This document shows positions 24,847 through 47,003 of a DNA stretch of 64,000 nt, in pieces. Below the pieces are notes generated by a model. That model did no database searches. It saw nothing but the letters and a program-made list of their open reading frames with translations, and had not been told where the DNA came from. Every line of letters begins with the position of its first letter. Positions within the stretch are counted from its first letter, which is position 1. This DNA comes from Pseudaminobacter soli (ex Zhang et al. 2022) (GTDB lineage Bacteria; Pseudomonadota; Alphaproteobacteria; Rhizobiales; Rhizobiaceae), in NCBI RefSeq assembly GCF_014595955.1, contig NZ_JABVCF010000009.1, positions 186,001 to 250,000 on the forward strand. Direction: 5' to 3'. Made by a program: the position numbers and the translations under genes.

Positions 24847-24895
24847 ATGCTATCCGAAGCCGTGTGCATTTCAAGGCGCAAGTTTTAAGCTTAAA
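24847..24895 (-). promoter_or_regulatory. Predicted aminotransferase promoter with AAGCTT palindrome
   Basis: On the minus strand a TTGAAA -35 (24869-24874) and TAGCAT -10 (24847-24852) are spaced by 16 bases. Ten bases upstream of the -35 lies the perfect 12-base palindrome TTTAAGCTTAAA (24884-24895), which overlaps the aldolase stop. The palindrome matches three others in the window at 25.8, 39.3 and 47.0 kb. Confidence 0.5.
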
Positions 24896-25712
24896 CAAAT
24901 TCGCCCCCTGCTTGCTTACCTTGATCGCCATCGGCAGATTCGGTTTTCGCCCTCCTGAGTCTTTCCGCCACGGCCTCCCCGAGAAACATCGTGTCGCTTG
25001 CCAGAATAAAGAAGCTGGCACCCTTCACGGACCATTTGGCGACGTCTTCCGGCCTTGCGCAGAAAATGCCAGCCGCCTTGCCCTTGGCCAGCGCCGCTGC
25101 AATGATGCTTTCGATCGCACTGGCAAGGCGCACGGCATGTTCGGGCCCAATCGCACCAAGCGAGACCGACAGGTCGCCGGGACCGACGAATACCACATCC
25201 ACGCCCTCGGTCGCAGCGATCGCATCCGCATTCGCGAGCCCTTCGGCGGTCTCGACCTGGACCGCGACCAGCACCCCTGAATTTGCCGCGGCCAGATACT
25301 CGAAGATGCGATAACCGTAACCGGCGGCGCGCCCCGGCCCGACGCCGCGCTCACCTTCCGGCGGGAAACGCGCTGCCTTGACCGCCGCCCTCGCCTGCTC
25401 GGCGCTGGAAACGCGCGGCACAAGCACGCCGCGGGCGCCGCTGTCGAGAGCGGCCGCAATCGCCTCCGGTCCGTGGCCCGGGACCCGGACCAGTGCCGGG
25501 ACGCCATGCACGTCGGCAGCCCGAACCAGGTTCTCGATGCCGTCGCGGGCGATCTGCGCATGTTCCCAATCCATGCACAGGAAGTCCGGACCCGAGTGCG
25601 CGACCACCTCTACGGCGACAGGGTGCGGGATCGCTGCAAACGTGCCGACGAGCTTCGCCCTTTCGAGACATCTATCGCGGAAGCCGGTCATTTGGCGTCC
25701 GTTTGTATCCAT
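24891..25712 (-). CDS. HpcH/HpaI-family aldolase
   Basis: A 273-residue class II-type pyruvate aldolase of the HpaI family. The catalytic Arg (LVRVPGHG), the metal-binding Glu (VQVETAEGL) and Asp (GPGDLS) blocks are present. It cleaves or forms a bond next to pyruvate in 4-hydroxy-2-oxo acids, as in the homoprotocatechuate pathway. The ATG at 25712 follows GGAAGGGGG. It is divergent from the RutA-like monooxygenase across a region holding an AAGCTT-type palindrome, and precedes the aminotransferase. The real substrate is unknown. Confidence 0.87.
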   Translation of the reverse strand: MDTNGRQMTGFRDRCLERAKLVGTFAAIPHPVAVEVVAHSGPDFLCMDWEHAQIARDGIENLVRAADVHGVPALVRVPGHGPEAIAAALDSGARGVLVPRVSSAEQARAAVKAARFPPEGERGVGPGRAAGYGYRIFEYLAAANSGVLVAVQVETAEGLANADAIAATEGVDVVFVGPGDLSVSLGAIGPEHAVRLASAIESIIAAALAKGKAAGIFCARPEDVAKWSVKGASFFILASDTMFLGEAVAERLRRAKTESADGDQGKQAGGEFV

Positions 25713-25782
25713 GCTGCCGCCCCCCTTCCGGATGTTCTTCCTTGTAACTAGGAGGAGAAGGCAGTCACCCGCAATACTCGCT

Positions 25783-25798
25783 ATTTCATGCTTGAACT
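25783..25798. promoter_or_regulatory. Operator-like palindrome in the aldolase/monooxygenase divergent promoter
   Basis: ATTTCATGCTTGAACT differs at two of 16 positions from the perfect palindrome upstream of abmA (39307-39322). The right half contains TTGAAC, a good plus-strand -35, with a weak TAGCGT 16 bases on, so a bound protein would cover the promoter of the RutA-like gene. It lies 45 bases from the monooxygenase start. Confidence 0.5.
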
Positions 25799-25843
25799 TT
25801 TCTCAGGCGCTCGTAGCGTGGCGTCCGGCGAGGAAACCCCAAC

Positions 25844-26935
25844 ATGATCAAACCGCATCCCCTGAGGGGGCCGAACCGGCTGAAGCTCGGCATCTTTTCC
25901 ACCAATGCCGACGGCGGGCTGGCGATCACCGACGTGCCCGAGCGCTGGCTAGCAAGCTGGAACGACAACCTCACCGCCGCCCAGATCGCCGACCGCGCCG
26001 GTCTGGAATTCGTGCTTCCCATCGCCCGCTGGCGCGGTTTCGGTGGCCGCAACAAGGTGCGCGAATGGTCGTTCGAAACCTTCACCTGGGCGGCCGGTCT
26101 GGCGGCGGCCACCGAGCAGATCGGCTTGTTCATGACCGTACACGTGCCGCTGGTGCATCCGCTCTATGCAGCCAAGGCGCTCGCCACCGTCGACCACATC
26201 AGCCAAGGGCGTGCCGGCCTCAACATCGTCTGCGGCTGGAATCCGAAAGAGTTCGGCATGTTCGGCGTGCCGCTGGTCGAAAAGGGTTATGACCAGGCGG
26301 CCGAGTGGATCGACATCGTCGAGCGGCTTTACACGTCCCACGAGCCCTTCGACTTCGACGGTAGCTATTATCAGCTGAAGCAGGCGGTAAGCCGCCCGTC
26401 GAGCCTGCAAAAGCCGCGGCCGGTGACGATGAACGCTGCCTTCGGCGGACCGGGCCGCGATTTCGCATCGGCCAAATGCGATTATCTCTTCACCACCTTC
26501 TCCGAAATCGCCGAGGCCGGCAGGCATGTCGCCGACATCCGCGAGCGCGCCGACAGGAAGGGTCGCAGCGTCGGCTGTTACACGGTCGCCCATGTGGTGT
26601 GCCGCGAAACTGTCGAGGAGGCCGAAGCCTATTACGAGCGCTATGGGGTGACCATGGCCGACCATGCGGCGGTCGACGCGCATATGGCCGGCAAGAATGA
26701 ATTCTCGCAATCGCATGACCGCAATGCCTACGATCTCTACCGCCAGCGTTTTGCTGGGGGCGCCGGCAGCTATCCGCTGGTCGGCTCGCCGGAGAAGATC
26801 GCTGAAGACATGATCCACATCGCCGTACAGGGCTATGAGGGCATCGCGCTCTCCTTCGTGAACTACACGCAGGAGTTGCCCTTCTTCTGCGACCGCGTGC
26901 TACCGCTGCTGGAGAGGGCGGGGTATCGGGTGTGA
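25844..26935 (+). CDS. LLM-class flavin-dependent monooxygenase, RutA-like
   Basis: A 363-residue bacterial luciferase-like flavin monooxygenase. The spaced pattern RWRGFGG, ESFT-type SFETFTWAAGLAAAT, HPLYAAKALATVDHISQGRAGLNIVCGW resembles the uracil monooxygenase RutA, which opens a pyrimidine ring, and also alkanesulfonate and dibenzothiophene-sulfone enzymes. It should use FMNH2 and oxygen. No flavin reductase gene is adjacent, so it must borrow one. The ATG at 25844 has GAGGAAA upstream. Its promoter shares an operator-like palindrome with the aldolase and the anthranilate operon. The substrate is unproven. Confidence 0.85.
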   Translation: MIKPHPLRGPNRLKLGIFSTNADGGLAITDVPERWLASWNDNLTAAQIADRAGLEFVLPIARWRGFGGRNKVREWSFETFTWAAGLAAATEQIGLFMTVHVPLVHPLYAAKALATVDHISQGRAGLNIVCGWNPKEFGMFGVPLVEKGYDQAAEWIDIVERLYTSHEPFDFDGSYYQLKQAVSRPSSLQKPRPVTMNAAFGGPGRDFASAKCDYLFTTFSEIAEAGRHVADIRERADRKGRSVGCYTVAHVVCRETVEEAEAYYERYGVTMADHAAVDAHMAGKNEFSQSHDRNAYDLYRQRFAGGAGSYPLVGSPEKIAEDMIHIAVQGYEGIALSFVNYTQELPFFCDRVLPLLERAGYRV

Positions 26936-27120: not shown

Positions 27121-27123
27121 CCG

Positions 27124-29100
27124 TCAGCCCCCGCTTACCCCCGCCTGATACATCGGCCCGCCCTTATGTGCCGGAAAACCGTAGCCGTTGATCATCACAA
27201 GATCGATGTCGCTCGCCCGCTCGGCGATGCCCTCGGTCAGCAACGCCCGGCCCTCCTCGGCCATGGTGGACAGCAGTCGTGATACGATCTCTGCGTTCGG
27301 AATCGGCCTCGCGAGAATGCCTTTCGCGGCGCGTGCGGCTTCGATCATGGCGGTGACGTCCGGATCGACCTGGCGCTTGCCGTCGACATAAACGTACCAA
27401 CCGCGCCCCGTCTTCTGGCCGAAGCGCCCGGCCTCGCAGAGCCGGTCGGCGATGTCGACATAGCGGACGGAGAGATCGCGCGTGGCTGCCTGCCGTTTGC
27501 GCCGGGCCCAGGCGATCTCCAACCCGGCCAGATCGAAGACGGCAAACGGCCCCATCGCGAAACCATAGCCTTCCATCGCGGCATCGATCTCATGCGGCAG
27601 AGCGCCCTCTTCGAGCAAGTACTCCGCCTCGCGCCGGTAAGCGGAAAAGATGCGGTTGCCGACAAAGCCCTCGCAAACGCCGCAAACGATCGGCAGCTTG
27701 CCGAGCCTCTTCGCCACTGCCAAACCTGTCGCCAGCACATCCGGCGCGGTTTTTGCCCCGCGCACGACCTCGACCAGGCGCATGATATTGGCCGGCGAGA
27801 AGAAGTGCATCCCGAGCACGCGCTCAGGCCGGGAAGTTGCGGCGGCGAGCGCATCCGGGTCGAGATAGCTGGTGTTTGTGGCCAGCACCGCATCCGGGCG
27901 CACAATGCCATCGAGCTCGCGAAACAGCTTCGTCTTCACCTCGATATCGTCGAACACCGCTTCGATCACCAGATCGGCTGCGGCAAGAGCGTCCAGCCCG
28001 TCGGCGATCGTCAGCCGGCCGAGCCGCTCCGAGCGTCCGGCATCGTCGAGGCGGCCCGATTTGACGGCTCGCTCGAGCAGCCCTTCGATCCGCACCCTAC
28101 CCTTCTGCGCTGCATCGGCTGACTGCTCCACGGCGACAACCCTGTAGCCTGCATCCAGCGCCGCCAGGGCAATGCCCGAGCCCATCAGTCCGAGCCCCGC
28201 CACGCCGATGGTTGACACCGGCCGGGGCTCGACGCCCTCCAGTCCGGCAACCTTGGCCGCCGCTCGCTCGGCAAAGAAGACGTGCCGCAATGCCTTCGCC
28301 TGGTCGGAATCGCGCAGACGCAAGAAGGTGGCACGCTCTTCGGCGAGCCCCTCGTCCAAGCCGACTTCTCCGGCAAGCCGGACAAGCCGGATCGCCTCCG
28401 CGGGCGCGGCCTGGCCGCGGGCCTTGGCGAGAACCTTTGCCGCTGCGGCCTCGGCAGCCTGATCGTCCGCATGCGGGACCTGCAACTGCCCGGTCCGCCG
28501 AAGGCTGGAGCCGACCAAAGCGCGGGCCGCACTCGCCGCCGCCTCGATGACATCGGCTTCGGCCAGCCGGTCCACCATGCCCAGCCGCATGGCCTCCTCG
28601 GCTCCAGCCATCCGTCCAGTGCCGATCAGCTCGATTGCAGCAGGGATCCCGGTCAGCCGCGGCAGGCGCTGGGTCCCGCCCGCGCCAGGCACGATGCCGA
28701 GCTTCACCTCCGGCAGCCCGAGCTTCGCCCCCTTCGCCGCGACCCGAGAATGGCAGGCCAGCGCGAGCTCCAGCCCGCCGCCGAACGCCGCCCCATTGAT
28801 CGCCGCCACCACGGGTTTCTCGCTCGCCTCGATGGCAGCGACCACCTGCGGCAGGATCGGCTCAGCCATGGGCTTGCCGAACTCGCGAATGTCAGCCCCG
28901 CCGACGAAGTTTTTGCCGGCGCCGGTGACCACGACGGCCGTGATCTCCCTGCTCGTGTGCGCATGTTCGACCGCCGCCGCCAGCCCCGCCCGCATCTCGG
29001 CGGATGCCGCGTTCACCGGTGGGTTGTCGATCGTGATGACGAGGACGCCATCGGCAATGTGGCCGGTCACGGTTTCGGAAAAGCTGATGGTCATTCCCAT
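27124..29100 (-). CDS. Enoyl-CoA hydratase / 3-hydroxyacyl-CoA dehydrogenase fusion (FadB/FadJ-like)
   Basis: A 658-residue fusion. The N-terminal crotonase part has both catalytic glutamates, Glu111 (GGGLELAL) and Glu131 (LPEVKLG). The C-terminal dehydrogenase has the NAD motif GLGLMGSG at 302-309 and the catalytic His432/Glu444 pair (HFFSPANIMRLVE). It hydrates an enoyl-CoA and oxidises the product to a 3-ketoacyl-CoA. No thiolase gene is adjacent. It lies 1 base after the RidA-like gene and ends the leftward anthranilate operon, so it probably handles the opened ring as a CoA ester. Confidence 0.9.
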   Translation of the reverse strand: MGMTISFSETVTGHIADGVLVITIDNPPVNAASAEMRAGLAAAVEHAHTSREITAVVVTGAGKNFVGGADIREFGKPMAEPILPQVVAAIEASEKPVVAAINGAAFGGGLELALACHSRVAAKGAKLGLPEVKLGIVPGAGGTQRLPRLTGIPAAIELIGTGRMAGAEEAMRLGMVDRLAEADVIEAAASAARALVGSSLRRTGQLQVPHADDQAAEAAAAKVLAKARGQAAPAEAIRLVRLAGEVGLDEGLAEERATFLRLRDSDQAKALRHVFFAERAAAKVAGLEGVEPRPVSTIGVAGLGLMGSGIALAALDAGYRVVAVEQSADAAQKGRVRIEGLLERAVKSGRLDDAGRSERLGRLTIADGLDALAAADLVIEAVFDDIEVKTKLFRELDGIVRPDAVLATNTSYLDPDALAAATSRPERVLGMHFFSPANIMRLVEVVRGAKTAPDVLATGLAVAKRLGKLPIVCGVCEGFVGNRIFSAYRREAEYLLEEGALPHEIDAAMEGYGFAMGPFAVFDLAGLEIAWARRKRQAATRDLSVRYVDIADRLCEAGRFGQKTGRGWYVYVDGKRQVDPDVTAMIEAARAAKGILARPIPNAEIVSRLLSTMAEEGRALLTEGIAERASDIDLVMINGYGFPAHKGGPMYQAGVSGG

Positions 29101-29101: not shown

Positions 29102-29500
29102 TCAATCCGGCAGCACCGCGATGGCCTGGATCTCGACCTTGGCGCGCTCCTCGACCAGTGCGACGACCTGCATGGCCGCCATGGCCGGGAAGTGCCGGCC
29201 GATCACCTCGCGATAGGCCTGCCCGATACCCTTGAGGCTGGCGAGGTACTCCGCGCGGTCGGTGAAGTACCAGGTCATCGAGGTGATATGCTGCGGCTCG
29301 GCGCCTGCCGACTTCAGCACGTCAACGACATTCTGCAGGGTCTGGCGGACCTGCCCGACCAGATCGTCGGTTTCGAACTGGCACTGCGGATTCCAGCCGA
29401 CTTGGCCCGCGACATAGATCTGGCGGCCCCTGGCCATCACCCCGTTCGCGTAACCCGCCGGCTTTGCCCAGCCCTCCGGCTGCAGGATCTCATGCATCAT
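29102..29500 (-). CDS. RidA/YjgF-family protein lacking the canonical arginine
   Basis: A 132-residue RidA-fold protein: beta strands around QIYVAGQVGWNP, QTLQNVVDVLKSAGAE and a closing KVEIQAIAVLPD. RidA-type enamine/imine deaminases use an Arg in a PARS-like turn. Here the equivalent turn is FPAMAAMQV, with Met107 at that position, so it is not a canonical RidA. Related proteins include 2-aminomuconate deaminases. It sits between tryptophan dioxygenase and a FadB-like gene in a pathway whose product, 2-amino-5-oxocyclohex-1-enecarbonyl-CoA, is an enamine, so a deaminase or sensing role is worth testing. Confidence 0.8.
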   Translation of the reverse strand: MMHEILQPEGWAKPAGYANGVMARGRQIYVAGQVGWNPQCQFETDDLVGQVRQTLQNVVDVLKSAGAEPQHITSMTWYFTDRAEYLASLKGIGQAYREVIGRHFPAMAAMQVVALVEERAKVEIQAIAVLPD

Positions 29501-29645: not shown

Positions 29646-30485
29646 CTAAAGCTCGGTCCGCACTTTCCAGAGTTCCGGAAAGAGCTGCACCTCGAGCATC
29701 CGGCGCAGATAGGACACGCCGGCCGTCCCGCCGGTGCCGCGCTTCAGGCCGATGATCCGCTCGACTGTGGTGACGTGATTGAAGCGCCAGCGGCGGAAAT
29801 AGTCCTCGAAGTCGACCAGCTTCTCGGCCAGTTCATAGAGCGCCCAGTGCTCGCCGGGCGCGGCATAGATTATCTTCCACGCCGCACGCACCGCATCGCT
29901 TTCGGCGCGCGTTTCGCGCCAGTCGGTCCGCCGCGCCTCGTCGCCGATGTCGAACCCTTTGCGGGCGAGCAGGAGCAGCGCCTCGTCATAAAGGCTGGGC
30001 TGCGAGAGGATCGCCTCCAGTTCGGCCATCACCTCCGCGCGGTGCTGATGCGGCCCCAGCATTGCGAGGTTGCGGTTACCGGCGAGGAACTCGATCGCGC
30101 GGTACTGCCAGGACTGGAACCCCGACGACTGGCCGAGCGAGCCGCGGAACTCGGTATATTCGCTGGGCGTCATCGTCCGCAGCACGTCCCAGGCATTGTT
30201 CAGCTGCTCGAAGATGCGCGCCACGCGGGTCAGCATCTTGAAGGCGGGCTGCAGATCGTCGCTCCGGATCGCCCGCATCGCCGAGCGGATCTCGTGGATG
30301 GCAAGCTTCATCCAAAGCTCGGAGGTCTGGTGCTGGATGATGAACAGGAGTTCGTCATGGGCGGTGGACAGCGGCTGCTGCGCTCCGAGCACCCGGTCGA
30401 GCATCAGATAGTCGCTATAGGACATACGTTCCTGGAACGACATTTCCGCCCCTTCCTGGACGGGATCGTAGGGCTTGGCGCTCAT
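29646..30485 (-). CDS. kynA: Tryptophan 2,3-dioxygenase
   Basis: A 279-residue haem dioxygenase that opens the indole ring of L-tryptophan to N-formylkynurenine. Visible residues are the distal His52 ([12 protein letters not shown]), substrate-binding Arg114 ([15 protein letters not shown]) and the haem-ligand His237 ([10 protein letters not shown]). Length fits bacterial TDOs. The start overlaps the kynureninase stop by 4 bases (ATGA), so the two are coupled. Formamidase, the intervening step, is not in this operon; the cyclase-family gene at 47.1 kb is the candidate. Confidence 0.95.
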
Positions 30486-31675
30486 GTCACCGCCGCCTTT
30501 CGCATGTATTCCGGGCGGTCCCAGAGCCGGTCCGCCATGATGCCGGCGAGGATGTCGACCGCCTTCAGCACGTCGTCACGGCCGAGATAGAGCGGCGTCA
30601 GGCCGAAGCGGACGATATCGGGCGCCCGGAAGTCGCCGATGACGCCGCGCGCGATCAGCGCCTGCATGATTGCATAGCCCTGCTCGTGACGGAACGAGAC
30701 CTGGCTGCCGCGCCGAGAGCCGTCCCGGGGGGAGGCCAGCGTGAGTTCGGGACAGCGCGCCTCCACCTCGCGGATGAACAGGTCGCCGAGATCGACGGAG
30801 GCCTTGCGCACGTCTTCGATGGACACGCCGTCCCAGACGTCCAGCGCCGCCTCCAGCGCGGTCAGCGCGATCACCGGCGGCGTGCCGCAGCGCATGCGTT
30901 CGATGCCGCGGCCCGGGCGGTAATCGAGATCGAAGGCGAACGGCGCCTCGTGGCCCATCCAGCCGGAAAGCGCCGGACGTGCGATTTCCGTATGCTGCGG
31001 CGCTACGTAGATGAAGGCAGGTGCCCCCGGGCCGCCGTTGAGATATTTGTAGGTGCAGCCGATAGCGAAGTCCGCTCCCACGGCCGTAAGGTCGACCGGC
31101 AGCGCGCCGGCCGAATGCGCGAGGTCCCAGATCATTAGGGCGCCAACCTCGCGTGCCTTTTTGGTGAGCCGCCCCATGTCGTGCAGACGCCCGGAGCGAT
31201 AATCGACCTCGGTGAGCATAACGGCGGCGACGGTCTCGTCGATCGCGTCTTCCACCTCCTCCGGCTCGACCACTTTCAGGACGTGTCCTTGCGCCAGCGA
31301 ACCGAGCAGCCCCTGCGCCATGTAGAGGTCGGAGGGGAAATTGCCGCTGTCGGACAGCACGACCTTACGGTCCGGCCTGAGTTCCAGCGCCGAGGCGAGC
31401 GCCTGGTAGACCTTTATCGACAGCGTATCGCCCATCACGACGGTGCCCTCGGGCGCGCCGATCAGCCGGCCGATACGGTCCCCCACCCTGCGCGGCTGCA
31501 CGTACCAGCCCGCGCTATTCCAGCCACGGATCAGCTGCTCGCCCCATTCCGCGCTCAGCATTTTTGCCACCCGCTCACCGGCCGCAATCGGCAGCGGCCC
31601 GAGCGAATTGCCGTCCATGTAGACGACGCCTTCGGGGATATGGAATTGGGCGCGGGTTTTGGTGAAGTCGGTCAT
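30482..31675 (-). CDS. kynU: Kynureninase
   Basis: A 397-residue PLP enzyme of the kynureninase family. The Schiff-base lysine is Lys210 in [12 protein letters not shown], preceded by [13 protein letters not shown] with Asp184. The N-terminal [13 protein letters not shown] block is diagnostic. It cleaves kynurenine to anthranilate and alanine. It is coupled to kynA by a 4-base overlap and lies 55 bases downstream of the aryl-CoA ligase, so anthranilate is handed straight to CoA activation. Confidence 0.95.
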
Positions 31676-31730: not shown

Positions 31731-33353
31731 TCATCCCTCCTCCCTCAGCCTGAAGCGCTGGATCTTGCCGGTCTGCGTCTTGGGCAAGGACTCCCTGAAC
31801 TTGATCGAGCGCGGGTATTTGTAGGGCGCGATCGTCGCCTTCACGTGGTCCTGCAGGAGCTTGCGCGTCAGGTCGTCGGCCCCCACGCCGTCGGCCAGGA
31901 CTACATGCGCCTCGACGATCTGGCCGCGTGCCTCGTCGGCAACGCCGATCACCGCGCATTCCGTGACATGAATATGGGCAAGGAGCGCTGCTTCGACCTC
32001 GGGGCCGGCGATATTGTAGCCGGACGAGATGATCATGTCGTCCGAACGCGCAGCGAAGCGGAAGAAACCTTCCTCGTCCTGGATGAAGGAGTCGCCGGTG
32101 AGATTCCAGCTATTGCGCACATAGTTGCGCTGGCGCTCGTCGGCCAGATAGCGGCAGCCGGTCGGGCCGCGCACCGCGAGCCGGCCGATCGTGCCGCGCG
32201 GCACTTCCCTCATCTCTTCATCGACGATCCGCGCCTCATAGCCGGTGACCGGGCGGCCGGTACGGCCCGGAGCCATGTCGGAGAGGCGGTTTGAGATGAA
32301 GATATGCAGCATCTCCGTGGATCCGATCCCGTCCAGGATCGCCTTGCCGGTCTTTTTCGTCCAGGCCTCGAACACGGGGGCCGGAAGCGTCTCCCCCGCC
32401 GAGACCGCGATCCTCAGCGACGACAGGTCGGCGCCCTCCTCCATCGCCTGCAGCATGGCGCGGTAGGCGGTCGGCGCGGTAAAACTGATCGTCGCGCGGT
32501 ATTTCTCGATGATCTCGACCATGTTCGGCGGCGTGGCGTTTTCGAGCAGCGTCGCCGCGGCGCCGAAGCGCAACGGGAAGATCGCCAGGCCGCCGAGGCC
32601 GAAGGTGAAGGCGAGCGGCGGCGAGCCGACGAAGACGTCGTCCGGCGTGACGCCGAGCACCTCCTTCGCATAGCCGTCGGCGATGATCAGAAGGTCGCGG
32701 TGGAAATGCATCGTCGCCTTCGGCACGCCGGTCGTGCCGGAGGTGAAGGCGAGCAGCGCGACATCGTCGCGCCCGGTCCGCACAGCCTCGAAGCGCACGG
32801 ATTTGTCGAGCGCGGCTCGGTCCAGCTCCGCGTCGTGGTTGGCGGTGCCGTCGAAGCCGACCACCTGTTTCAGGAACCGACTGTCCTTGGCGCAGGCGAC
32901 CATCTCGTCCATCAGGCGCGTATCGCAGAGCGCGAGCGAGATTTCGGCCTTGTCGACGATCTTGGCGAGTTCGCCGGCCCTCAGCATCGGCATTGTGTTG
33001 ACCACCACCGCGCCGGCCTTGGTCGCAGCCAGCCAGCAGGCGACCATCGCCGGATTGTTGGCCGAGCGTATCAGCACGCGGTTGCCCGGCTTGACGCCAT
33101 AGTTTTCGACCAGCGCATGCGCGAGCCGGTTGGTCCAGTCCGACAGTTCCTTATAGGTGCGCCGCCGGCCGTTGCCGATCAGCGCGGTGCGGTCACCGAA
33201 CCCTTTTTCGACCAGCCGATCAGTAAGCTCGGCGCCGGCATTGAGGTATTCCGGATAGTCAAAGCCCTGCATGAGCAAGTCTGGCCATTGGTCGGCCGGC
33301 GGAAGGTTGTCGCGCGTGAACGTGTCGAGATGGGCGGAGGGGCCGAGGGTCAT
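31731..33353 (-). CDS. Aryl-CoA ligase, 2-aminobenzoate-CoA ligase-like
   Basis: A 540-residue AMP-forming CoA ligase of the benzoate-CoA ligase group. The ATP motif TSGTTGVPK is at 204-212, and the C-terminal catalytic lysine sits in LPKTQTGKIQRF. The N-terminal sequence and the neighbours suggest 2-aminobenzoate (anthranilate) as substrate, as for abmG of Azoarcus. It converts the kynureninase product into 2-aminobenzoyl-CoA, the substrate of the AbmA-like flavoprotein. A benzoate or salicylate activity cannot be excluded by sequence. Confidence 0.87.
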   Translation of the reverse strand: MTLGPSAHLDTFTRDNLPPADQWPDLLMQGFDYPEYLNAGAELTDRLVEKGFGDRTALIGNGRRRTYKELSDWTNRLAHALVENYGVKPGNRVLIRSANNPAMVACWLAATKAGAVVVNTMPMLRAGELAKIVDKAEISLALCDTRLMDEMVACAKDSRFLKQVVGFDGTANHDAELDRAALDKSVRFEAVRTGRDDVALLAFTSGTTGVPKATMHFHRDLLIIADGYAKEVLGVTPDDVFVGSPPLAFTFGLGGLAIFPLRFGAAATLLENATPPNMVEIIEKYRATISFTAPTAYRAMLQAMEEGADLSSLRIAVSAGETLPAPVFEAWTKKTGKAILDGIGSTEMLHIFISNRLSDMAPGRTGRPVTGYEARIVDEEMREVPRGTIGRLAVRGPTGCRYLADERQRNYVRNSWNLTGDSFIQDEEGFFRFAARSDDMIISSGYNIAGPEVEAALLAHIHVTECAVIGVADEARGQIVEAHVVLADGVGADDLTRKLLQDHVKATIAPYKYPRSIKFRESLPKTQTGKIQRFRLREEG

Positions 33354-39355: not shown

Positions 39356-39482
39356 GAGGTGCGTCCTTCGAGGCTCGGCCCGCCGAGTCACAGATTTACC
39401 GTATCGAAGCAGTGCGGGCCCGCATCGCGGCGAAAAAAATCGGGAAAAAGCATAGCGGGGCGAGCCTCGAAGGACGCACCTC
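39356..39482. repeat. Inverted repeat with exact 22-base arms between abmA and the importer
   Basis: Arms at 39356-39377 and 39461-39482 are exact inverted copies of 22 bases, built around GTGCGTCCTTCGAGGCTCG. Similar arms occur at 43.5-43.7 kb, so it is a second dispersed repeat family. The 39483-39496 gap to the importer ATPase stop holds nothing else. Confidence 0.8.
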
Positions 39483-39496: not shown

Positions 39497-40330
39497 TTAC
39501 CCCCTTCTCCCGACAGACACTGCCCCAAGCCACTCCGGATCGACCTCCGGCAGCGGGATCGCCGCGATCAGTTCCCGCGTATAGGCATGGGCCGGACCAT
39601 CGAAGATCGCCTCGGTCGGTCCGGCCTCGACGATCTCTCCCTGCCGCATCACGATGACCTGCCGGCATAGCCTCCGGATCACCGAGAGGTCATGGCTGAT
39701 GAAGGCGACGGTCAGGCCCATCTCGTCCGCCAGTCTTTCCAACAGCGTGAGGATCTGCGCCTGGGTGGAGACGTCGAGGCCCGAGACGATCTCGTCGGCC
39801 AGCACGAATTTCGGCTCGAGCGCCAGTGCTCGCGCTATGCCGACGCGCTGGCGCTGGCCTCCCGACAGTTCGTGGCGATAACGGCTCGCAAAACTCGCCG
39901 GCAGGCCGACCCGCTTCAGCGCCTCGGCGACCCTGTCACGAAGATTGTCGCCCATCCCGTTCTGCTTCAGCGGCGCGGCGATGATCGCACCGATGGTGCG
40001 GCGCGGATTGAGCGACGACATCGGGTCCTGAAAGATCATCTGCAGGTCGCGCCGCAGCGGCCTCAGTTCCGCCTCGGCAAGATGCGTGATGTCGCGGTCC
40101 TCGAAGACGACGCTTCCGCCGGTGGGTTCGATCAGACGCACCAGCGCGCGCCCGAGCGTCGACTTCCCGGAGCCGGACTCGCCGACGATACCGGTGACGG
40201 AGCGCGCCGGCAGGTCGAAATCAAAACCCTTCAGGATCTCGGCCAGGGGCGCGCGGCCGAACAACGGCTTGCGCGTCATGTCCGGCAGCGCGACCTTCAG
40301 CCCGCGCACGCGGAAGAGGGCGTCAGCCAT
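39497..40330 (-). CDS. Dipeptide/oligopeptide ABC importer ATP-binding protein, DppF-like
   Basis: A 277-residue ABC ATPase of the Dpp/Opp F group. Walker A GESGSGKST, signature LSGGQRQRVGIARAL and Walker B FVLADEIVSGLDVS are visible. The Walker B Asp-Glu pair here is ADE. The ATG at 40330 overlaps the DppD stop by 8 bases. It drives uptake through the DppB/DppC permeases; with the anthranilate operon downstream, an aromatic peptide or amine is a possible ligand. Confidence 0.9.
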   Translation of the reverse strand: MADALFRVRGLKVALPDMTRKPLFGRAPLAEILKGFDFDLPARSVTGIVGESGSGKSTLGRALVRLIEPTGGSVVFEDRDITHLAEAELRPLRRDLQMIFQDPMSSLNPRRTIGAIIAAPLKQNGMGDNLRDRVAEALKRVGLPASFASRYRHELSGGQRQRVGIARALALEPKFVLADEIVSGLDVSTQAQILTLLERLADEMGLTVAFISHDLSVIRRLCRQVIVMRQGEIVEAGPTEAIFDGPAHAYTRELIAAIPLPEVDPEWLGAVSVGRRG

Positions 40331-41201
40331 GCGGCGCTCTCCAGTCCCGGTCGGCGGCCGCGATCTCCTCGGCAAGCCCGGCCAGGACGGCATCATCGAC
40401 AGGCTTCAGGGATGCGAGCGGATCGGTGTAGCGCGGCGTCGCGGCCATCAGAGCGCGTGTGTACGGGTGACGCGGCGCGGCGAACAGCGCGGCCGTGTCC
40501 GCCTCCTCCGCGACCTTGCCAGCATAGAGCACCGTCACCTTCTGGCTGATCTTGGCGACCACGCCGAGATCATGCGTGACGAACAGGATCGCCGTGCCAT
40601 GCTCCCGCTGCAAGGCGGCGATCAGCCTGAGGATCTGCTTCTGGACCGTGACGTCGAGCGCCGTGGTCGGCTCGTCGGCGACGATCAGCCGGGGCTCGGC
40701 GGCGAAGGCAGCGGCGATCAGCACGCGCTGCCGCATGCCGCCCGAAAGCTCATGCGGATAGGCGCGCAGGACCCGCTCCGCATCGCGGATCTGCACCTCG
40801 TCCAGCAGCTGGCGCACGCGCGCGTCCGCCTTGGCTGCGTCCCAGCCGAGAATCTTCGTCAGCCGGTCGGTCATCTGCGGCCCGATCCGGCGCGATGGGT
40901 TGAGCGCCGTCAGCGGGTCCTGGGGGATCAGCGCGGTGCGGGCTCCGATGAGGGTGCGGCGCTGTTTGGGAGACAAACCACCAAGCTCGGTGCCCTCGAT
41001 GGCGATCCGGCCCTCGGCTACCCGCACGCTCGGCGGCAGCACGCCAAGCACCGCCTTGCCGATCATGCTCTTGCCTGCGCCGCTCTCGCCGACCAGCGCC
41101 CGCACCTCGCCGGGATGAACGGCGAGTGAGACCGAACGCAGGACGCGCAGGCCGTTCGGCAGGGTGGCGCTGAGGTTGGAAATTTCGAGGGCGGGAGTCA
41201 T
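40323..41201 (-). CDS. Dipeptide/oligopeptide ABC importer ATP-binding protein, DppD-like
   Basis: A 292-residue ABC ATPase of the DppD group. Walker A GESGAGKS, signature LSGGMRQRVLIAAAF and Walker B IVADEPTTALD are present. The C-terminal RHPYTRAL region is typical of the family. The ATG at 41201 is the first sensible start; the longer frame extends into the repeat region upstream. It pairs with DppF. Confidence 0.9.
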   Translation of the reverse strand: MTPALEISNLSATLPNGLRVLRSVSLAVHPGEVRALVGESGAGKSMIGKAVLGVLPPSVRVAEGRIAIEGTELGGLSPKQRRTLIGARTALIPQDPLTALNPSRRIGPQMTDRLTKILGWDAAKADARVRQLLDEVQIRDAERVLRAYPHELSGGMRQRVLIAAAFAAEPRLIVADEPTTALDVTVQKQILRLIAALQREHGTAILFVTHDLGVVAKISQKVTVLYAGKVAEEADTAALFAAPRHPYTRALMAATPRYTDPLASLKPVDDAVLAGLAEEIAAADRDWRAPHG

Positions 41202-41324
41202 GGAACCTGCCAGCCCTTTCCGTCGCCATAGGCGGTCGTCAATTGTGCCTGTAGGCGAGGAATATCCATTCCGATAAGTGGCTGCTTTGCCGGTCTGAGT
41301 TCTGCCTCTGCTTTGTTTCCTCGA

Positions 41325-41517
41325 CTCCGAGGCATGGATTCCCGACACTCTCCGCTTCGCTTCGCTCGCTCACGAAGTCGGGAATGACGATTCCCATGTT
41401 CCGCTTCAGCTAGTCGCCGAGGTTGGTGATTAGCTGTGAGGCCGGTGAGGGTCGTCATTCCCGACCTCGTGAGCGAGCGAAGCGAAGCGGGAAGTGTCGG
41501 GAATCCATGCCTCGGAG
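41325..41517. repeat. Large inverted repeat with 64-base arms between dppC and dppD
   Basis: Arms at 41325-41388 and 41454-41517 are inverted copies of 64 bases with about three mismatches, built around GAGGCATGGATTCCCGACA and CTTCGCTTCGCTCGCTCACGA. It fills most of the 409-base gap between dppC and dppD. The rest of that gap (41202-41324 and 41518-41610) holds no gene. The element could fold into a strong hairpin in the operon message. Confidence 0.85.
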
Positions 41518-41610
41518 GTGACGACACCAGAGCCGGTGTAGAACTTGGCAGTTTGCGGGGGCTCCAACGGAAGACCGCCGCAGGCTGCGGAAGGGGCGCA
41601 ACGCAACCAC

Positions 41611-42459
41611 TCATCTCAGCACCGGATCGAAACGCGCCTTCAGCCCCTCGCCGAACTGGCTGAAGGAAAGCACGGTGAGGAACAGCGTGACCAGCGGAAA
41701 GACCAGCACCCACCATGCCTGGTGGATCGAGAGCCGGCCCTCGGCGATGATGCCGCCCCAGGTAGGGTCGTCGGTCGAGATCGACAGGTTCACGAAGGAC
41801 AGAATCGCCTCGACGATGACGGCGATGCCCATCTCCAGTGAAAGCAGCGCCACGATCGAGGGAAGCACATTGGGCAGCACTTCGCGCAGCATGATGTCGA
41901 AGCGGCCGAAGCCGGCGATACGGGCGTTCTCGACATAATCCATGCGCGACTGCGACATGGCCTCGGCGCGCACGACACGGCAGAAGCGCGTCCAGTCGAT
42001 TACCGCTATCGCAACGATCACCGAGGTCAATCCGGTGCCGAGCACCGCTACGAGCAGGATGGCGAACAGCACCGGCGGAAACGCCATCCAGATGTCGACG
42101 ATGCGCGAGACGATGCGGTCGGCCCAGCCGCGATAGTAGCCGGCGATCAGGCCAAGCGCCGAGCCAACCAGGCAGGCCGCAGTGGCTGCAGCAAAGGCTA
42201 CGGAGAAAGCGATGCGTCCTCCGTAGATGATGCGCGAAAAGAGGTCGCGGCCAAGACTGTCGGTTCCGAGCCAGAAACCCGGCTCCGCCCCCTGCATCCA
42301 GAAGGGCGGGAGACGCTCGTAGAGAAGGTCCTGGGCCAGCGGGTCCTGCGGCGACACCAGCGGGGCGAACACCGCCGCGAGCAGGATAAGCAGCAGCCAT
42401 CCTCCCGAGAGCCAGAGCCGCGCATTCCATGCACGCGGCAGCGCGCGCGTCTCAGCCAT
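41611..42459 (-). CDS. Dipeptide/oligopeptide ABC importer permease, DppC-like
   Basis: A 282-residue permease with about six helices, the first near 13-32 (LWLSGGWLLLILLAAVFAPL). GTDSLGRDLFSRIIYGGRIAFSV and the EAA-like block YVENARIAGFGRFDIMLREVLPN are typical of DppC. It overlaps the DppB stop by 8 bases. It forms the channel with DppB. Confidence 0.9.
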   Translation of the reverse strand: MAETRALPRAWNARLWLSGGWLLLILLAAVFAPLVSPQDPLAQDLLYERLPPFWMQGAEPGFWLGTDSLGRDLFSRIIYGGRIAFSVAFAAATAACLVGSALGLIAGYYRGWADRIVSRIVDIWMAFPPVLFAILLVAVLGTGLTSVIVAIAVIDWTRFCRVVRAEAMSQSRMDYVENARIAGFGRFDIMLREVLPNVLPSIVALLSLEMGIAVIVEAILSFVNLSISTDDPTWGGIIAEGRLSIHQAWWVLVFPLVTLFLTVLSFSQFGEGLKARFDPVLR

Positions 42460-43459
42460 GACGGAGTCGCGGGTTGAGCAGCGCGTAGGTCATGTCGACC
42501 GCCAGGTTGATGAGCACGAAGATGAGCGCAAAGACCAGCACGATGCCCTGGATCAGCGGCAGATCACGATTGATCACCGCGTCAATCGCCATGTTGCCGA
42601 GCCCTTCGTAAGAGAACAGTCGCTCTACGATGACGGTGCCGCCGATGAGGAAGGTGAACTGCACGCCGACCAGCGTCAGCGTCGGCAGCGCGGCGTTCTT
42701 CAGCGCCTCGCGCAGGATCACCTGCGTCTCGGAAAACCCCTTCACCCGCGCCAGGACGACATAGTCGAGAGACAACAGTTCCTTCAGCGACTGCTTGAGC
42801 AGTTGCGCGATGATGGCTGCCAGCGGCAGGGCAAGCGCCAGCGCCGGCATGAACATGTGGCCGATCAGGTCTTTGGTGAGGTCGAAGCGCAGCCTGAGGA
42901 TGCTCTCGATAAGGTAGAATTGCGTGACGAAGGGCAGTTCGAGCTGGGGCGAGACCCGGCCGGAAATTTCGAAAACCGGCATCAGCACGCCGAAAATCAG
43001 GATGAGCACCAGCCCCCAGAGGAAGTCGGGAATGGACAGCGCCGCGCCGTTGGCTACGTCGATGCCGGCCTCCACCGCGGTGCCCCTCTCCCGGGCGCCG
43101 ATGATCGCCAGCGGCAGGCCGATCGCAAGCGCCAGAAGCAGCGCCATGATTGACAGTTCGAGCGTTGCCGGAAGCCGGTTCATGACCAGTCCGAGCACGT
43201 CCTGCCTGAGCGAAATCGACATGCCGAAGTCGCCCCGCAGAACACCGGCGAGCCAGATGAAGAACTGCTCGATGAGCGACTTGTCCAGCCCGTAGAGCGC
43301 CCTCAATCGAGCGATATCTGCATCGCTCGCGCCCGGCGGCAGCATCATGGCGATCGGATCGCCCGGCGCGATGCGGATGACCACGAACACCACCACCGCC
43401 ACGCCGAACAGCGTGACGGCCATGGTGAACAGGCGGATGAGCAGGCACTGGAGGATCAT
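42452..43459 (-). CDS. Dipeptide/oligopeptide ABC importer permease, DppB-like
   Basis: A 335-residue permease. The N-terminal helix (LFTMAVTLFGVAVVVFVVIRIAPGDP) and the EAA block KGFSETQVILREALKNAALPT are present. The ATG at 43459 is preferred; a TTG at 43483 lies in the repeat arm and would add eight residues. The weak ribosome site at the ATG leaves this open. It precedes DppC. Confidence 0.88.
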   Translation of the reverse strand: MILQCLLIRLFTMAVTLFGVAVVVFVVIRIAPGDPIAMMLPPGASDADIARLRALYGLDKSLIEQFFIWLAGVLRGDFGMSISLRQDVLGLVMNRLPATLELSIMALLLALAIGLPLAIIGARERGTAVEAGIDVANGAALSIPDFLWGLVLILIFGVLMPVFEISGRVSPQLELPFVTQFYLIESILRLRFDLTKDLIGHMFMPALALALPLAAIIAQLLKQSLKELLSLDYVVLARVKGFSETQVILREALKNAALPTLTLVGVQFTFLIGGTVIVERLFSYEGLGNMAIDAVINRDLPLIQGIVLVFALIFVLINLAVDMTYALLNPRLRHG

Positions 43460-43484
43460 TTTGTTCGGGCCAAGTTGCGGCAAG

Positions 43485-43740
43485 GTGCATCCTTCGAGGC
43501 TCGCCCATCAAGGCAGGCGACCTCTCATTCAAGGTTGTGCGGGCTCGCACCTCAGGATGAGGACCGGCGCGCCTGCAAGGCTAACCGGCGACGCTGAACC
43601 CGAGATGCCGAACCTCCGGGACTAGATGCAGGGCCTCAAAGATGAAGGCATTTGGCACAAACGTTCCTCATCCTGAGGTGCGACCCTGAGCGCGAGCGAC
43701 CAAGTCGCGAGCAGTCGAAGGCGAGCCTCGAAGGACGCAC
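43485..43740. repeat. Nested inverted repeats between dppA and dppB
   Basis: Outer arms 43485-43505 and 43720-43740 (21 bases, one mismatch) belong to the CCTTCGAGGCTCGCC family. Inner arms 43546-43563 and 43665-43682 are exact 18-base inverted copies around CACCTCAGGATGAGGA. The element fills the dppA-dppB gap, where binding-protein and permease messages usually diverge in level. Confidence 0.8.
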
Positions 43741-43786
43741 GCCAATGCCGCGCGCCCTTACAGAACGCGCAGCATCGGCGATTTCC

Positions 43787-45316
43787 TCACGCCGGCGTCA
43801 TCAGCGCGGGCAGCAGCGCGCCGGAGACATGCGGCACCACCTTCACGCTCTTTGAATGCACGATCGGCTGCGCATACTGGATGAGCGGGATGACATAGGC
43901 GTTGTCGGCGATCAGCTTGGACACCGCCTTCCAGCCGGCGATGCGCTTGGCCTCGTCGGGTTCGCCCCACAGCGGATTGATCGCGTCGATGACGTCCTGA
44001 CCGTCCCAGACCGAGTGCGGGCTCGGCCCATACATGGCGAAGCCGGTCGAGGTGGTCGGATCGCCGATCGCGTTGCCCCAGTTGTAGAAGGCGGCGGGCG
44101 CGAGCTTGTCGGCGGCCCGCAGTTCGTAGTGCTTGGCGATCTCGTAGACCTCGATGTTGGCCTCGATGCCGACTTTGCGCCACATGCCGACGATCGCCTG
44201 GATCATCTCGTAGTCCTTGGGCTTGAAGCCCTTGGTGGTCTGGATCGTGAACTTGACCGGATTGTCGGTCGAGTAGCCGGACGCCGCGAGCAGCTCCTTG
44301 GCCTTTTCCGGATTGTATTCGACCTTGATCGACGGATCGAATGCCGCGTATTCGGGAGTCTCAAGCGTATTGAGCGGCAGGCCGTAGCCGCGCAGCAGCC
44401 GGTCGACGAGGAGCTTCTTGTCGATGGAGATCGCCGCCGCCATGCGCACGTTGTTGTCGAGCATCACGTCGATGTCGTTCAGGAAGATCATGCCGATATC
44501 GGAGATGTTCGTCACCGAACCGGTCAGTCCGTCCTTGGCGATCAGGCGGTCGTATTCCTCGTAGGGCACTTCGAGCGTCACCTGCGAGGAGCCGGACTCG
44601 ATCTCCGCGACACGGCTCGCCGCATCGGGCACGAACTTGATCGTGACGTTCTCGAAAGCCGGCTTGCCGCCCCAGTAGTTCGGGTTGGCCTTCAACCGCA
44701 GGAAGGCGTTGCGCTCGAACTTCTCGACCATGTACGGGCCCGTGCCGATCGGCTTGGCCTCGAAACCCTCCGCCCCGACCTTCTCGAAATAGGCCTTCGG
44801 CATCACGTAGCCGGTGAGGAACGACATCCATTTGAAATAGACCGGATCGAACTGGACGACGTCGCCGGTGATCTTGTTGCCGTCGATCTTGAAGTTGTTG
44901 ACGTTCTTCCAGACGAACTGGATCGGGTTGCCGGTTTCCTCCTTGCCGGCCCGCTCCAGCGACCAGACGATGTCCTCGGGCGTGAACGGCGAGCCGTCGT
45001 GCCAGGTGACGCCTTCGCGCACCACCATCATCACCTTGGTGCGGTCCTCGTTCCACCCCCACTGGGTCAGCAGGCCGGGACCGAAGGAAAGATCCGGCGC
45101 CTGCGGGATGAACTGGTCGAACACCGACTGGTAGATGCCCTGGATGGTCGGGTTCACCGCCGACGGACCGGTCGTGGGATCCCACGATGGCAGATTGACG
45201 TTGTAGGCGATGGTGAGTTCGTTCGCCTGGGCTCTCGCCAGGCTTGGCATGCCGATGGCCGCCACGCCGAGCGCGGATGCGCCGTAGCCCATGAGTTGAC
45301 GTCTGTTGATCGTCAT
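43787..45316 (-). CDS. Dipeptide/oligopeptide ABC importer substrate-binding protein, DppA-like
   Basis: A 509-residue periplasmic binding protein of the SBP_bac_5 family. A twin-arginine-like signal (NRRQLMGYGASALG) with cleavage after ARAQ near residue 30 is visible. The family blocks VREGVTWHDGSPFTPEDIVWSL and GTGPYMVEKFERN follow. It captures a peptide-like solute for the DppBCDF set downstream. Its gene lies 85 bases after the phytoene-desaturase-like flavoprotein gene, so both may share a promoter at 47.0 kb. Confidence 0.9.
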   Translation of the reverse strand: MTINRRQLMGYGASALGVAAIGMPSLARAQANELTIAYNVNLPSWDPTTGPSAVNPTIQGIYQSVFDQFIPQAPDLSFGPGLLTQWGWNEDRTKVMMVVREGVTWHDGSPFTPEDIVWSLERAGKEETGNPIQFVWKNVNNFKIDGNKITGDVVQFDPVYFKWMSFLTGYVMPKAYFEKVGAEGFEAKPIGTGPYMVEKFERNAFLRLKANPNYWGGKPAFENVTIKFVPDAASRVAEIESGSSQVTLEVPYEEYDRLIAKDGLTGSVTNISDIGMIFLNDIDVMLDNNVRMAAAISIDKKLLVDRLLRGYGLPLNTLETPEYAAFDPSIKVEYNPEKAKELLAASGYSTDNPVKFTIQTTKGFKPKDYEMIQAIVGMWRKVGIEANIEVYEIAKHYELRAADKLAPAAFYNWGNAIGDPTTSTGFAMYGPSPHSVWDGQDVIDAINPLWGEPDEAKRIAGWKAVSKLIADNAYVIPLIQYAQPIVHSKSVKVVPHVSGALLPALMTPA

Positions 45317-45401
45317 TGTCGTTCCCCTTCTGGTTGTCCCGACCCCGGTTGTTCCGGGTGTATTTGCTTGGTCGCAGCCCTCCAGCTACGAGAATAGATT
45401 G

Positions 45402-46973
45402 TTACTTCCCGGCGAGTTGCTGCGCCAGCATGAAACCCGAGCCGGCCCCCACGCCGCAGCCCGGCCATGTAGCGGCGCCGATCAGGTGCAACCGTTCGAC
45501 CGGCGTGTTCCACTTCGCGAAGCCGCGCACCGGCCTGAACAAAAAATTCTGCGAGAGGTGATGGCTACCGCAGATCTGGTCGCCGCCGACGAGGTTCGGG
45601 TTTTCACGCTCGAGATCGAGCGGAGAGAAGATCGCCCGGCCGAGGATTTTTCCGCGCAAGCCCGGAGCATGGCGCTCCAGAATGTCGAGGGCGCGTTCGG
45701 CGTAGCGCTCCTTCACATCGTCCCAGTGCGCCGGCTCGATCTGCCCGGCCGCATCGCCCCGGATCTCCGCCGGCAGCGCCCGCACCTGCAGCCACAGCAC
45801 GTGCTTGCCTTCCGGCGCGCGCGATGGGTCGATCGCTGTAGGCTGCCCCACCACCAGCACCGGCTCGTCGGGCAGCATCCCGCTCATCGCCTGCTGATAG
45901 GTTCGCGCCATGGCATCGAGCGACGGCGCGAGATGGACATAGGCGAAGCGGCGCAGCTCGGCTCCGGCGCGCCAGTCTGGAAGATCTTCCATCGCGAGAT
46001 GGATCATCATCGTCCCCGGCGCATGCCGGAACGCCTTGGCCGAACGATCGAAGCTGGCATCGCCGGAGCCCTCGGGCAGCAGTTTTCCGGGAAGCGCTCC
46101 GGGCGCGACACCCGCCACGACCGCCTTGCGCGCCCTGTGCATCTCGCCGGAAGCGAGCCGCACGCCGGTGGCGCGGCCGCCTTCCGTGACGATCTCCTTT
46201 ACCTCGGCCGAGGTGAGGACCTTGCCTCCAGCAGCAGTCACCATTGTTTCGAGTGCCCCGATCATAGTGTCGGCCCCGCCCTTGCCTAGCACCATGCCGA
46301 AACTCTGGTTCGCCATGGATTCCAGGTATGGGAACACGGCTCCACCGGCGATGTCGGGCGCGAAGTCGAGATGCATGCCCCACGCGGCGAGAGTCGCCCG
46401 CACATGCTCCGACTCGAACGTCTCGGTAAGCCAGGCGCGGGGCGACATGAGAAGCAGACGGACGGTGTCGAGCGCGCCCATCTTCTTCTTGCGCCATGCG
46501 TTCCATGCCGTGCCGGCCAGCGCGCGTAACGACATCGGCGAGCCGAGCACTCGAAACAGATGCTCCGCCTCACCCGGGAACTCCGCGACAAGCCGGCGCC
46601 ACATATCGGCATCAGCCTCGGAGAATTCCGAAATCCGCGAGACCGTCGTATTCAGGTCCGTGCTCACGCCGAACCAGCGCCCGTCCGGGAACACGCTGGC
46701 GAAGCAGTCGCTTGCCGGGACGAACTCCAGTCCGGCTAAGATCAATTCATTTGCATATTTCTTGTGGAAGGCAGAGCCCGCGAACAGGCTGAGGTTCATG
46801 GCCCCGAAGTCGTGACGGAAGCCCGGCAGAGTGCATTCTCTTGTTTGAACTGCGCCGCCGATGCAGTCGTTGCGTTCGAAAAGCGCGACCTTCCAGCCTT
46901 TCAAGGCCAGATGAGCGGCACAGGCGAGGCTGTTGTGGCCCGCCCCGATGAATATCGCGTCGAACTCGCTCAC
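45402..46973 (-). CDS. Phytoene-desaturase-like FAD-dependent oxidoreductase
   Basis: A 523-residue flavoprotein of the phytoene-desaturase/amine-oxidase fold. The ADP-binding motif is GAGHNSLACAAHLALKGWKVALFER, and the closing glycine-rich block GAATWPGCGVGAGSGFML binds FAD. There is no carotenoid gene nearby, so desaturation of phytoene is unlikely. It has a paralogue at 48.2 kb. It shares a promoter region with the divergent cyclase. The GTG at 46973 has GAGGGGGG upstream. The substrate is unknown; an aromatic or amine compound is suggested by its neighbours. Confidence 0.78.
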   Translation of the reverse strand: MSEFDAIFIGAGHNSLACAAHLALKGWKVALFERNDCIGGAVQTRECTLPGFRHDFGAMNLSLFAGSAFHKKYANELILAGLEFVPASDCFASVFPDGRWFGVSTDLNTTVSRISEFSEADADMWRRLVAEFPGEAEHLFRVLGSPMSLRALAGTAWNAWRKKKMGALDTVRLLLMSPRAWLTETFESEHVRATLAAWGMHLDFAPDIAGGAVFPYLESMANQSFGMVLGKGGADTMIGALETMVTAAGGKVLTSAEVKEIVTEGGRATGVRLASGEMHRARKAVVAGVAPGALPGKLLPEGSGDASFDRSAKAFRHAPGTMMIHLAMEDLPDWRAGAELRRFAYVHLAPSLDAMARTYQQAMSGMLPDEPVLVVGQPTAIDPSRAPEGKHVLWLQVRALPAEIRGDAAGQIEPAHWDDVKERYAERALDILERHAPGLRGKILGRAIFSPLDLERENPNLVGGDQICGSHHLSQNFLFRPVRGFAKWNTPVERLHLIGAATWPGCGVGAGSGFMLAQQLAGK

Positions 46974-46989
46974 TCCCCCCTCGCCTTTT

Positions 46990-47003
46990 CTTTAGGCTTA
47001 AAG
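46990..47003. promoter_or_regulatory. Operator-like palindrome in the flavoprotein/cyclase divergent promoter
   Basis: CTTTAGGCTTAAAG has CTTTA/TAAAG arms and matches TTTAAGCTTAAA (24.88 kb) at 11 of 12 core positions. It sits 17 bases from the flavoprotein start in the 115-base divergent region. The MarR gene at 49.8 kb or the one at 35.7 kb could use it. Confidence 0.45.

Follow-up and report, generated by a model that had tools for sequence, protein, structure and literature searches.

The DNA analysed here (the window) comprises 64,000 nucleotides of contig NZ_JABVCF010000009.1 of Pseudaminobacter soli and carries, within ca. 22 kb (24884-47003), four related palindromes located in front of putative genes for the breakdown of tryptophan, isatin and 2-aminobenzoyl-CoA, together with genes for two MarR-family proteins, referred to below as MarR1 and MarR2. 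Genes were called by NCBIfam, Pfam and PDB searches of the open reading frames (ORFs) of the window, and substrates were inferred from protein families. The AbmA-type enzyme, CoA ligase, tryptophan 2,3-dioxygenase (TDO) and kynureninase genes form one minus-strand run at 29.6-39.3 kb. It opens with abmA (36967-39258), whose product is of the 2-aminobenzoyl-CoA monooxygenase/reductase type (NCBIfam NF006101, 1266.9 bits, cut-off 1078), and continues on the same strand with genes for a short-chain dehydrogenase (SDR; 36197-36970, within a longer scanned ORF), MarR1, the candidate repressor inside the operon (35727-36203; Pfam MarR and MarR_2 matches on the containing ORF), an enoyl-CoA hydratase family protein (ECH; 34912-35727, also within a longer scanned ORF), an acyl-CoA dehydrogenase (ACAD; 33523-34746), a member of the benzoate-CoA ligase family interpreted as 2-aminobenzoate-CoA ligase (ABCL; 31731-33353; 379.9 bits, cut-off 375.25), kynureninase (KynU; 30482-31675; 278.7 bits, cut-off 246.4) and TDO (29646-30485; 420.7 bits, cut-off 390.7).

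Genes for a Rid-type imine deaminase (29102-29500) and a FadB/FadJ-like 3-hydroxyacyl-CoA dehydrogenase (27124-29100) lie on the minus strand as well. To their left are an LLM-class FMN monooxygenase gene of the RutA/SfnG-like type (25844-26935, plus strand) and minus-strand genes for an HpaI-type class II pyruvate aldolase (24891-25712) and a pyridoxal phosphate aminotransferase of the PRK06108 subfamily (23564-24766; 442.8 bits, cut-off 422), with an amino-acid-type ABC transporter beside them. To the right of abmA are oligopeptide-type ABC transporter genes (39497-45316) and a gene for a CrtO-like flavoprotein, FAD1 (45402-46973), all on the minus strand. The plus-strand gene at 47089-47880 had been called a cyclase in a first-pass annotation of this DNA; judged by full-length similarity to the solved enzyme (PDB 4j0n over residues 1-262, E 7.8e-129), its product is instead an isatin hydrolase B orthologue, and an arylformamidase model gives this ORF 26.6 bits, its cut-off being 223. 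It is followed on the plus strand by genes for a second CrtO-like flavoprotein, FAD2 (48193-49761), MarR2 (49762-50244; nearest structures 3cjn and 7kym) and an indolepyruvate:ferredoxin oxidoreductase-like pair, IorA and IorB (50414-54203). With the cyclase replaced by isatin hydrolase, two branches, one from isatin and one from kynurenine, would join at anthranilate; both could finish there and then proceed to 2-aminobenzoyl-CoA.

The palindromes stand at the coordinates, and have exactly the letters, reported in the first-pass annotation, and all four are located in promoter regions, as it had claimed. Site 1, upstream of the aminotransferase gene, consists of a distal dyad, TTTAAGCTTAAA (24884-24895, minus strand), which overlaps the aldolase stop codon, and, 14 bp on, an imperfect proximal dyad, TTGCGCCTTGAA (24870-24881, minus strand), which overlaps a -35 element TTGAAA (24869-24874) with a -10 element TAGCAT (24847-24852). 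Site 2, TTCATGCTTGAA (25785-25796, plus strand), lies between the aldolase and LLM monooxygenase genes and overlaps a -35 element TTGAAC (25792-25797; -10 element TAGCGT, 25814-25819). Site 3, upstream of abmA, has a proximal dyad, TTCAAGCTTGAA (39309-39320, minus strand), overlapping a -35 element TTGAAA (39308-39313; -10 element GATAGT, 39285-39290), and a distal dyad 14 bp away (39323-39334, minus strand). Site 4, TTTAGGCTTAAA (46991-47002, strand unassigned), is found in the divergent region between the FAD1 and isatin hydrolase genes.

The pattern TTYANGCTTRAA matches four places in the window and none in 100 dinucleotide shuffles. Genome-wide (6.1 Mb), there are six matches, four of them inside this 22 kb, one within a predicted gene and one intergenic; the backwards control gives five. 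When one mismatch to the palindrome TTYAAGCTTRAA is allowed, 16 places are retrieved, 12 of them outside the 22 kb and eight of these 12 within genes, as judged by a rough codon-bias choice of ORFs. This density corresponds to 0.044 expected sites in 22.1 kb, a value that is indicative only, the pattern having been derived from the sites. At one mismatch the palindrome is not enriched across the genome (16 places against 24 for the backwards pattern), and the signal is therefore one of clustering and conservation.

Conservation was assessed in the best 80 of 586 abmA loci, mostly from Mesorhizobium and its kin (1.59 Mb in total). By its abmA matches, the best of them at 91%, the genome belongs near Mesorhizobium. 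In the 260 bp preceding abmA, the closest match to TTYAAGCTTRAA had zero, one and two mismatches in 47, 25 and 4 of the 80 loci, and the backwards pattern in 0, 1 and 1. Thus, a site with at most one mismatch precedes abmA in 72 of 80 loci, the control scoring one. Sites 1 and 2 are kept in each of the 22 loci with the LLM gene, and site 4 in 40/40 loci that hold both FAD1 and isatin hydrolase. Over the whole 1.59 Mb there are 154 strict matches (backwards, none), 153 of them outside named genes. The first-pass annotation had asked whether the motif is as common within genes as upstream of them and whether it is conserved in front of orthologues; on both counts the result favours its proposal. 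A control that keeps the half-sites, TTYAACGTTRAA, matched 14/80 loci at one mismatch and 68/80 at two, and is for that reason not a clean one.

Relocated genes have the site as well. A search of 10 genomes for the CoA ligase gave nine places in eight genomes, three of them within an abm operon; a strict site was found upstream of all six ABCL genes outside it, four of which have TDO immediately after them. One of these ligases, in Mesorhizobium amorphae (L175), is followed by paralogues of MarR1 and AbmA, the latter with its own site. This paralogous pair (46% and 54% identity, respectively) is encoded at L175:5490-8392, with an operator between the two genes. Among plasmids, six of 14 records matching the LLM monooxygenase were read. 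Lone orthologues (82-83% identity) in Rhizobium jaguaris, R. tropici CIAT 899 and Rhizobium sp. 11515TR all have a site that begins 94-105 bp upstream (with one mismatch in a single case), and no HpaI, abmA or isatin hydrolase gene was found in the 19 kb around them. On a Neorhizobium SOG26 plasmid, the site lies beside an aldolase gene adjoining the LLM gene. The two remaining records hold remote homologues with no site, and such homologues (55-65% identity; Novosphingobium, Caballeronia and two other genomes) had it in none of four cases. The two predictions made on relocated genes, for ABCL and for lone LLM, both held.

The arrangement of sites and promoter elements is also conserved. At 25.8 and 39.3 kb, the right half of the palindrome had been said to form the -35 element; this is correct, and it extends to relatives. 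The LLM promoter reads TTGAA[AC]-N16-TAGCGT in 21/22 loci (TAGCCT in the remaining one), with a single dyad over the -35 element. The abmA promoter reads TTGAAA-type-N17-GATA[CGT]T in 36 of 41 loci with OppF; two others have TAAACT at N16 and three have none. A conserved -35 element is thus covered by a dyad at three promoters, those of abmA, the LLM monooxygenase and the aminotransferase, and flanking DNA varies among relatives while the dyad, -35 and -10 elements stay the same. Sites 1 and 3 are both tandems, which the first-pass annotation had overlooked; at both, the dyad on the -35 element is the proximal one. With half-sites allowed at most two mismatches in eight, a second dyad exactly 14 bp upstream was found at abmA in 58 of the 72 loci with a good site, the next most frequent offset, 13 bp, occurring in 19. 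The 14 bp tandem is also present at abmA in Ruegeria pomeroyi DSS-3 and Paracoccus denitrificans PD1222, more weakly in Roseivivax, and the same spacing recurs at loci L178, L180, L190 and L206; in Thalassospira, the abmA tandem has a 15 bp spacing and two mismatches per dyad. The simplest reading of the tandem is that two dimers would bind side by side, perhaps cooperatively. Adjoining the abmA operator, ca. 80 bp are bounded by a 22 bp inverted repeat, GAGGTGCGTCCTTCGAGGCTCG (39356-39377 and 39461-39482), whose arm has 38 genome matches at up to two mismatches, many in facing pairs (backwards control, none); it resembles a palindromic repeat element of the rhizobial kind.

Both MarR genes had been put forward as encoding candidate binders. 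For MarR1 (35.7 kb) the proposal stands, as its gene co-occurs with the sites; MarR2 (49.8 kb) is unlikely, as set out below. MarR1 is encoded within the abm operon in 75 of 80 abmA loci, and in four others the contig stops less than 0.4 kb from abmA, leaving 75 of 76 testable loci. The exception, a metagenome-assembled genome (MAG) of Afifellaceae (L083), has a MarR1 gene (49% identity) ca. 20 kb away on the same contig. On this contig, another strict site separates the aminotransferase-transporter genes from an operon of the order GntR-LLM-(aldolase/isatin hydrolase) that is read in the opposite direction. A wider search retrieved MarR1 homologues at 49 places in 299 genomes of the phylum; 40 were fetched, and those left out were the window, five genomes of the same family (82-83% identity) and three more. 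A site with at most one mismatch lies within 330 bp upstream of abm/kyn genes in 22 of the 40 (perfect in nine; backwards, 0/40). Mapped onto the MarR1 tree, the site label requires 10 changes, compared with 18.5 in shuffles, none of 500 being as low. At L206, a MarR1 homologue beside TDO-KynU is preceded by a tandem site with one perfect dyad, no abmA being present in the stretch. MarR1 itself resembles MarR structures in phmmer searches, including PDB 6c28 (E 6.2e-5). PDB 3boq is a homologue only; its being the Ruegeria MarR1 itself was ruled out.

We therefore consider the four palindromes to be, very probably, operators of one regulon, with MarR1 as the most likely binder; the claim that the catabolic units belong to a single regulon has good support in the conservation of the sites at orthologous promoters. 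Provisionally, this is a real, conserved MarR-type catabolic regulon, ordinary in kind and, as far as searched, new in content. In the proposed mechanism, a MarR1 dimer would bind each TTYAAGCTTRAA dyad, with two dimers 14 bp apart at the abmA and aminotransferase promoters, one of them on the -35 element. When substrate is absent, MarR1 would exclude RNA polymerase from the operon abmA-SDR-marR1-ECH-ACAD-ABCL-kynU-TDO and would also shut the aminotransferase/ABC genes, the LLM monooxygenase and aldolase genes, and FAD1/isatin hydrolase. An inducer, most likely 2-aminobenzoyl-CoA, the product of ABCL and the substrate of AbmA, would release MarR1. Tryptophan via kynurenine and isatin via isatinate would in this way converge on anthranilate under one switch.

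Several points weigh against this interpretation. MarR1 as the binder, repression, the ligand and the pathway assignments are all deduced from sequence. Many of the conserved loci belong to closely related Mesorhizobium, such that the counts are not independent, and the clustering of the site label on the MarR1 tree reflects ancestry in part. A close site is missing from 18 of the 40 phylum loci, among them all eight rows of one MarR1-tree clade (f33 and f56, taken for betaproteobacteria), and four named betaproteobacterial abmA promoters, found among the eight of 91 matching plasmid records that were read, have no site at two mismatches. A diverged form, TTTAGACATRAA, precedes abmA in two members of the siteless clade (L196 and L208) and also in Comamonas; our reading is that the operator may have drifted there together with the protein. 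No σ70-like promoter was recognised by a consensus scan at site 4, whose distance from the FAD1 start codon is ca. 17 bp. Finally, NF006101 is named for salicylyl-CoA 5-hydroxylase/oxidoreductase and not for a 2-aminobenzoyl-CoA enzyme, and the ring acid was therefore assigned from neighbouring genes.

MarR1 might bind the sites as an activator or a dual regulator. The perfect dyad is the distal one at the aminotransferase promoter, the site 4 dyad is off any recognisable -35 element of isatin hydrolase, and MarR activators exist according to PMC9613470. We nevertheless regard this as rather unlikely, given that the conserved -35 element covered by a dyad at abmA, LLM and the aminotransferase is the usual place of a repressor. 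That a different regulator, of the LysR or GntR family or encoded elsewhere, uses the sites is very unlikely: a LysR gene is indeed present in the window (18320-19222), and a GntR/FCD gene lies beside a site at locus L234, yet it is MarR1 that recurs with the site, and the window LysR has a relative of at least 35% identity in none of the 80 abmA loci; for GntR, the search extended no further than L234.

The possibility that MarR2 binds all four sites must be weighed against a second palindrome. MarR2 is the MarR protein encoded near site 4, and its module, isatin hydrolase-MarR2-IorAB, is conserved, in some cases with FAD2. However, the TTYAAGCTTRAA motif and MarR1 occur in many loci with no MarR2 found within the stretch read, and none of eight relatives' MarR2/IorAB stretches contains a strict TTYAAGCTTRAA-type site. 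Six Rhodobacterales modules encode a MarR protein sharing 43-57% identity with MarR2 and have IorAB downstream; in five of them, another palindrome precedes isatin hydrolase, with no TTYAAGCTTRAA there at one mismatch, and the sixth, in Paracoccus SMMA_5_TC, combines the two kinds of site, as the window does. MarR2 as the common binder is thus highly improbable. That the palindromes are there by chance can be practically dismissed: the pattern was read off the sites and its loose form occurs genome-wide no more often than its reverse, but conservation at the same places already refutes this, together with near-empty controls and the two predictions on relocated genes.

The second palindrome itself, TTGCAGATGCAT (47008-47019, strand unassigned), adjoins site 4 and is a candidate MarR2 operator. 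Site 4 is part of a ca. 50 bp block, conserved beyond the dyad, that contains it; the window segment at 47003-47045, strongly conserved, holds TGCANNTGCA and TGTTTTCGTCTAGT. The form TGCANNTGCA was found in 40/40 Mesorhizobium-type loci. In the Rhodobacterales modules, it stands before isatin hydrolase exactly in four of six (Tritonibacter, two Paracoccus and Sulfitobacter mediterraneus); the other two (S. dubius and Alloyangia) have a version that differs by one base. It was found in none of four isatin hydrolase neighbourhoods lacking IorAB. It is not unique: there are two further matches in the window (10162 and 33659) and 33 further ones in the 40 Mesorhizobium-type loci, most near the ACAD-Rid boundary. 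No conserved block that could serve as a MarR2 site was found before FAD2 in the footprint, and the MarR2-IorA gap is variable too. As TGCANNTGCA tracks MarR2/IorAB modules, TTGCAGATGCAT/TGCANNTGCA is proposed as the candidate MarR2 operator. Plasmids of Tritonibacter and Sulfitobacter (L255 and L259) carry the module in the order ABC transporter-FAD1-isatin hydrolase-FAD2-MarR2-IorAB.

The genes gathered by the sites suggest, tentatively and with some doubt on our part, that the aminotransferase, LLM monooxygenase, HpaI aldolase and isatin hydrolase make up an unrecognised route from tryptophan to isatin, in which case both routes would be under MarR1 sensing 2-aminobenzoyl-CoA, and MarR2 would gate the isatin branch by way of a separate operator in the shared site 4 promoter. 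Tryptophan or oxidised tryptophan would have its side chain deaminated to give indolyl (dioxindolyl) pyruvate, and the ring would be oxidised; the aldolase would then split off pyruvate, leaving isatin, which isatin hydrolase would open towards anthranilate. By alignment, the aldolase retains the residues matching the His, Arg, Glu and Asp of its family, which we take to be the catalytic ones. In a single MAG (L234:3130-4698), an HpaI and an isatin hydrolase domain are joined in one 522-residue frame; no such fusion was found in the 13 genomes of the class with a match (of 385) or in 56 plasmid records with a match. The 10 plasmid isatin hydrolase neighbourhoods speak against a general link to the aldolase, none of them being annotated with an HpaI or LLM gene alongside. 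One of the 10, in Sulfitobacter dubius (L261:6809-8738), has immediately before isatin hydrolase a gene of the dihydrodipicolinate synthase family, a different type of pyruvate-handling lyase that may take the place of the aldolase. The fusion and the shared operator make retro-aldol release of isatin worth testing, and we go no further than that.

If the proposed regulon is real, it would provide an operator and a regulator for 2-aminobenzoyl-CoA catabolism across many alphaproteobacteria, and would join indole/isatin and tryptophan breakdown in plant-associated bacteria in one decision. Its motif would help to locate functionally linked genes that are not neighbours, and it also points to the possible aldolase-based isatin route. 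The tandem abmA sites of Ruegeria pomeroyi DSS-3 and Paracoccus denitrificans PD1222 make the regulon testable.

Among known systems, the iad auxin-catabolism loci of Variovorax and Bradyrhizobium have two MarR regulators, IadR and IadR2; MarR_73 represses at an operator before the iad operon, and for the second MarR neither a ligand nor a DNA site was identified (PMC9613470). The iad loci and the window are alike in having two MarR genes, IorAB beside a MarR gene, and isatin and anthranilate as intermediates (putative ones in the window); repression by a MarR protein from an operator ahead of an operon is likewise proposed for the window. They differ in that no Rieske dioxygenase (iadDE) was found among the window ORFs scanned (16.6-61.3 kb), and for this reason the window is not considered an iad locus. 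In a same-order genome, taken for Bradyrhizobium, the two MarR genes that accompany IorAB and a Rieske dioxygenase are only 38% identical to MarR1 and 37% to MarR2. A segment of a same-order genome, L219:1230-10386, with Rieske dioxygenase subunits, a CoA ligase, two MarR genes and IorAB, is probably its iad locus. The identity of MarR1 with IadR2 was considered and is not supported by a comparison with the IadR2 candidate in genome G421, which is 38% identical to MarR1; the same genome has closer MarR1 relatives (48% and 53%).

The 2-aminobenzoyl-CoA (abm) pathway with kynurenine genes is a further likeness, the window sharing with it the run of AbmA-type fusion enzyme, CoA ligase, TDO and kynureninase. 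No description of a regulator or operator for this pathway was recognised in the literature searched, which was covered in part, and occurrences of the motif letters in published texts were taken, judging by titles, for oligonucleotides; novelty is accordingly provisional, as this partial literature held no recognised account of the operator. CouR is a MarR repressor of an aromatic-acid CoA pathway, and its operator differs from the one described here. MarR1 shares the MarR fold with CouR and is distant from it in sequence (PDB 6c28, E 6.2e-5). By analogy with CouR-type repressors, a CoA thioester is proposed as the inducer of MarR1.

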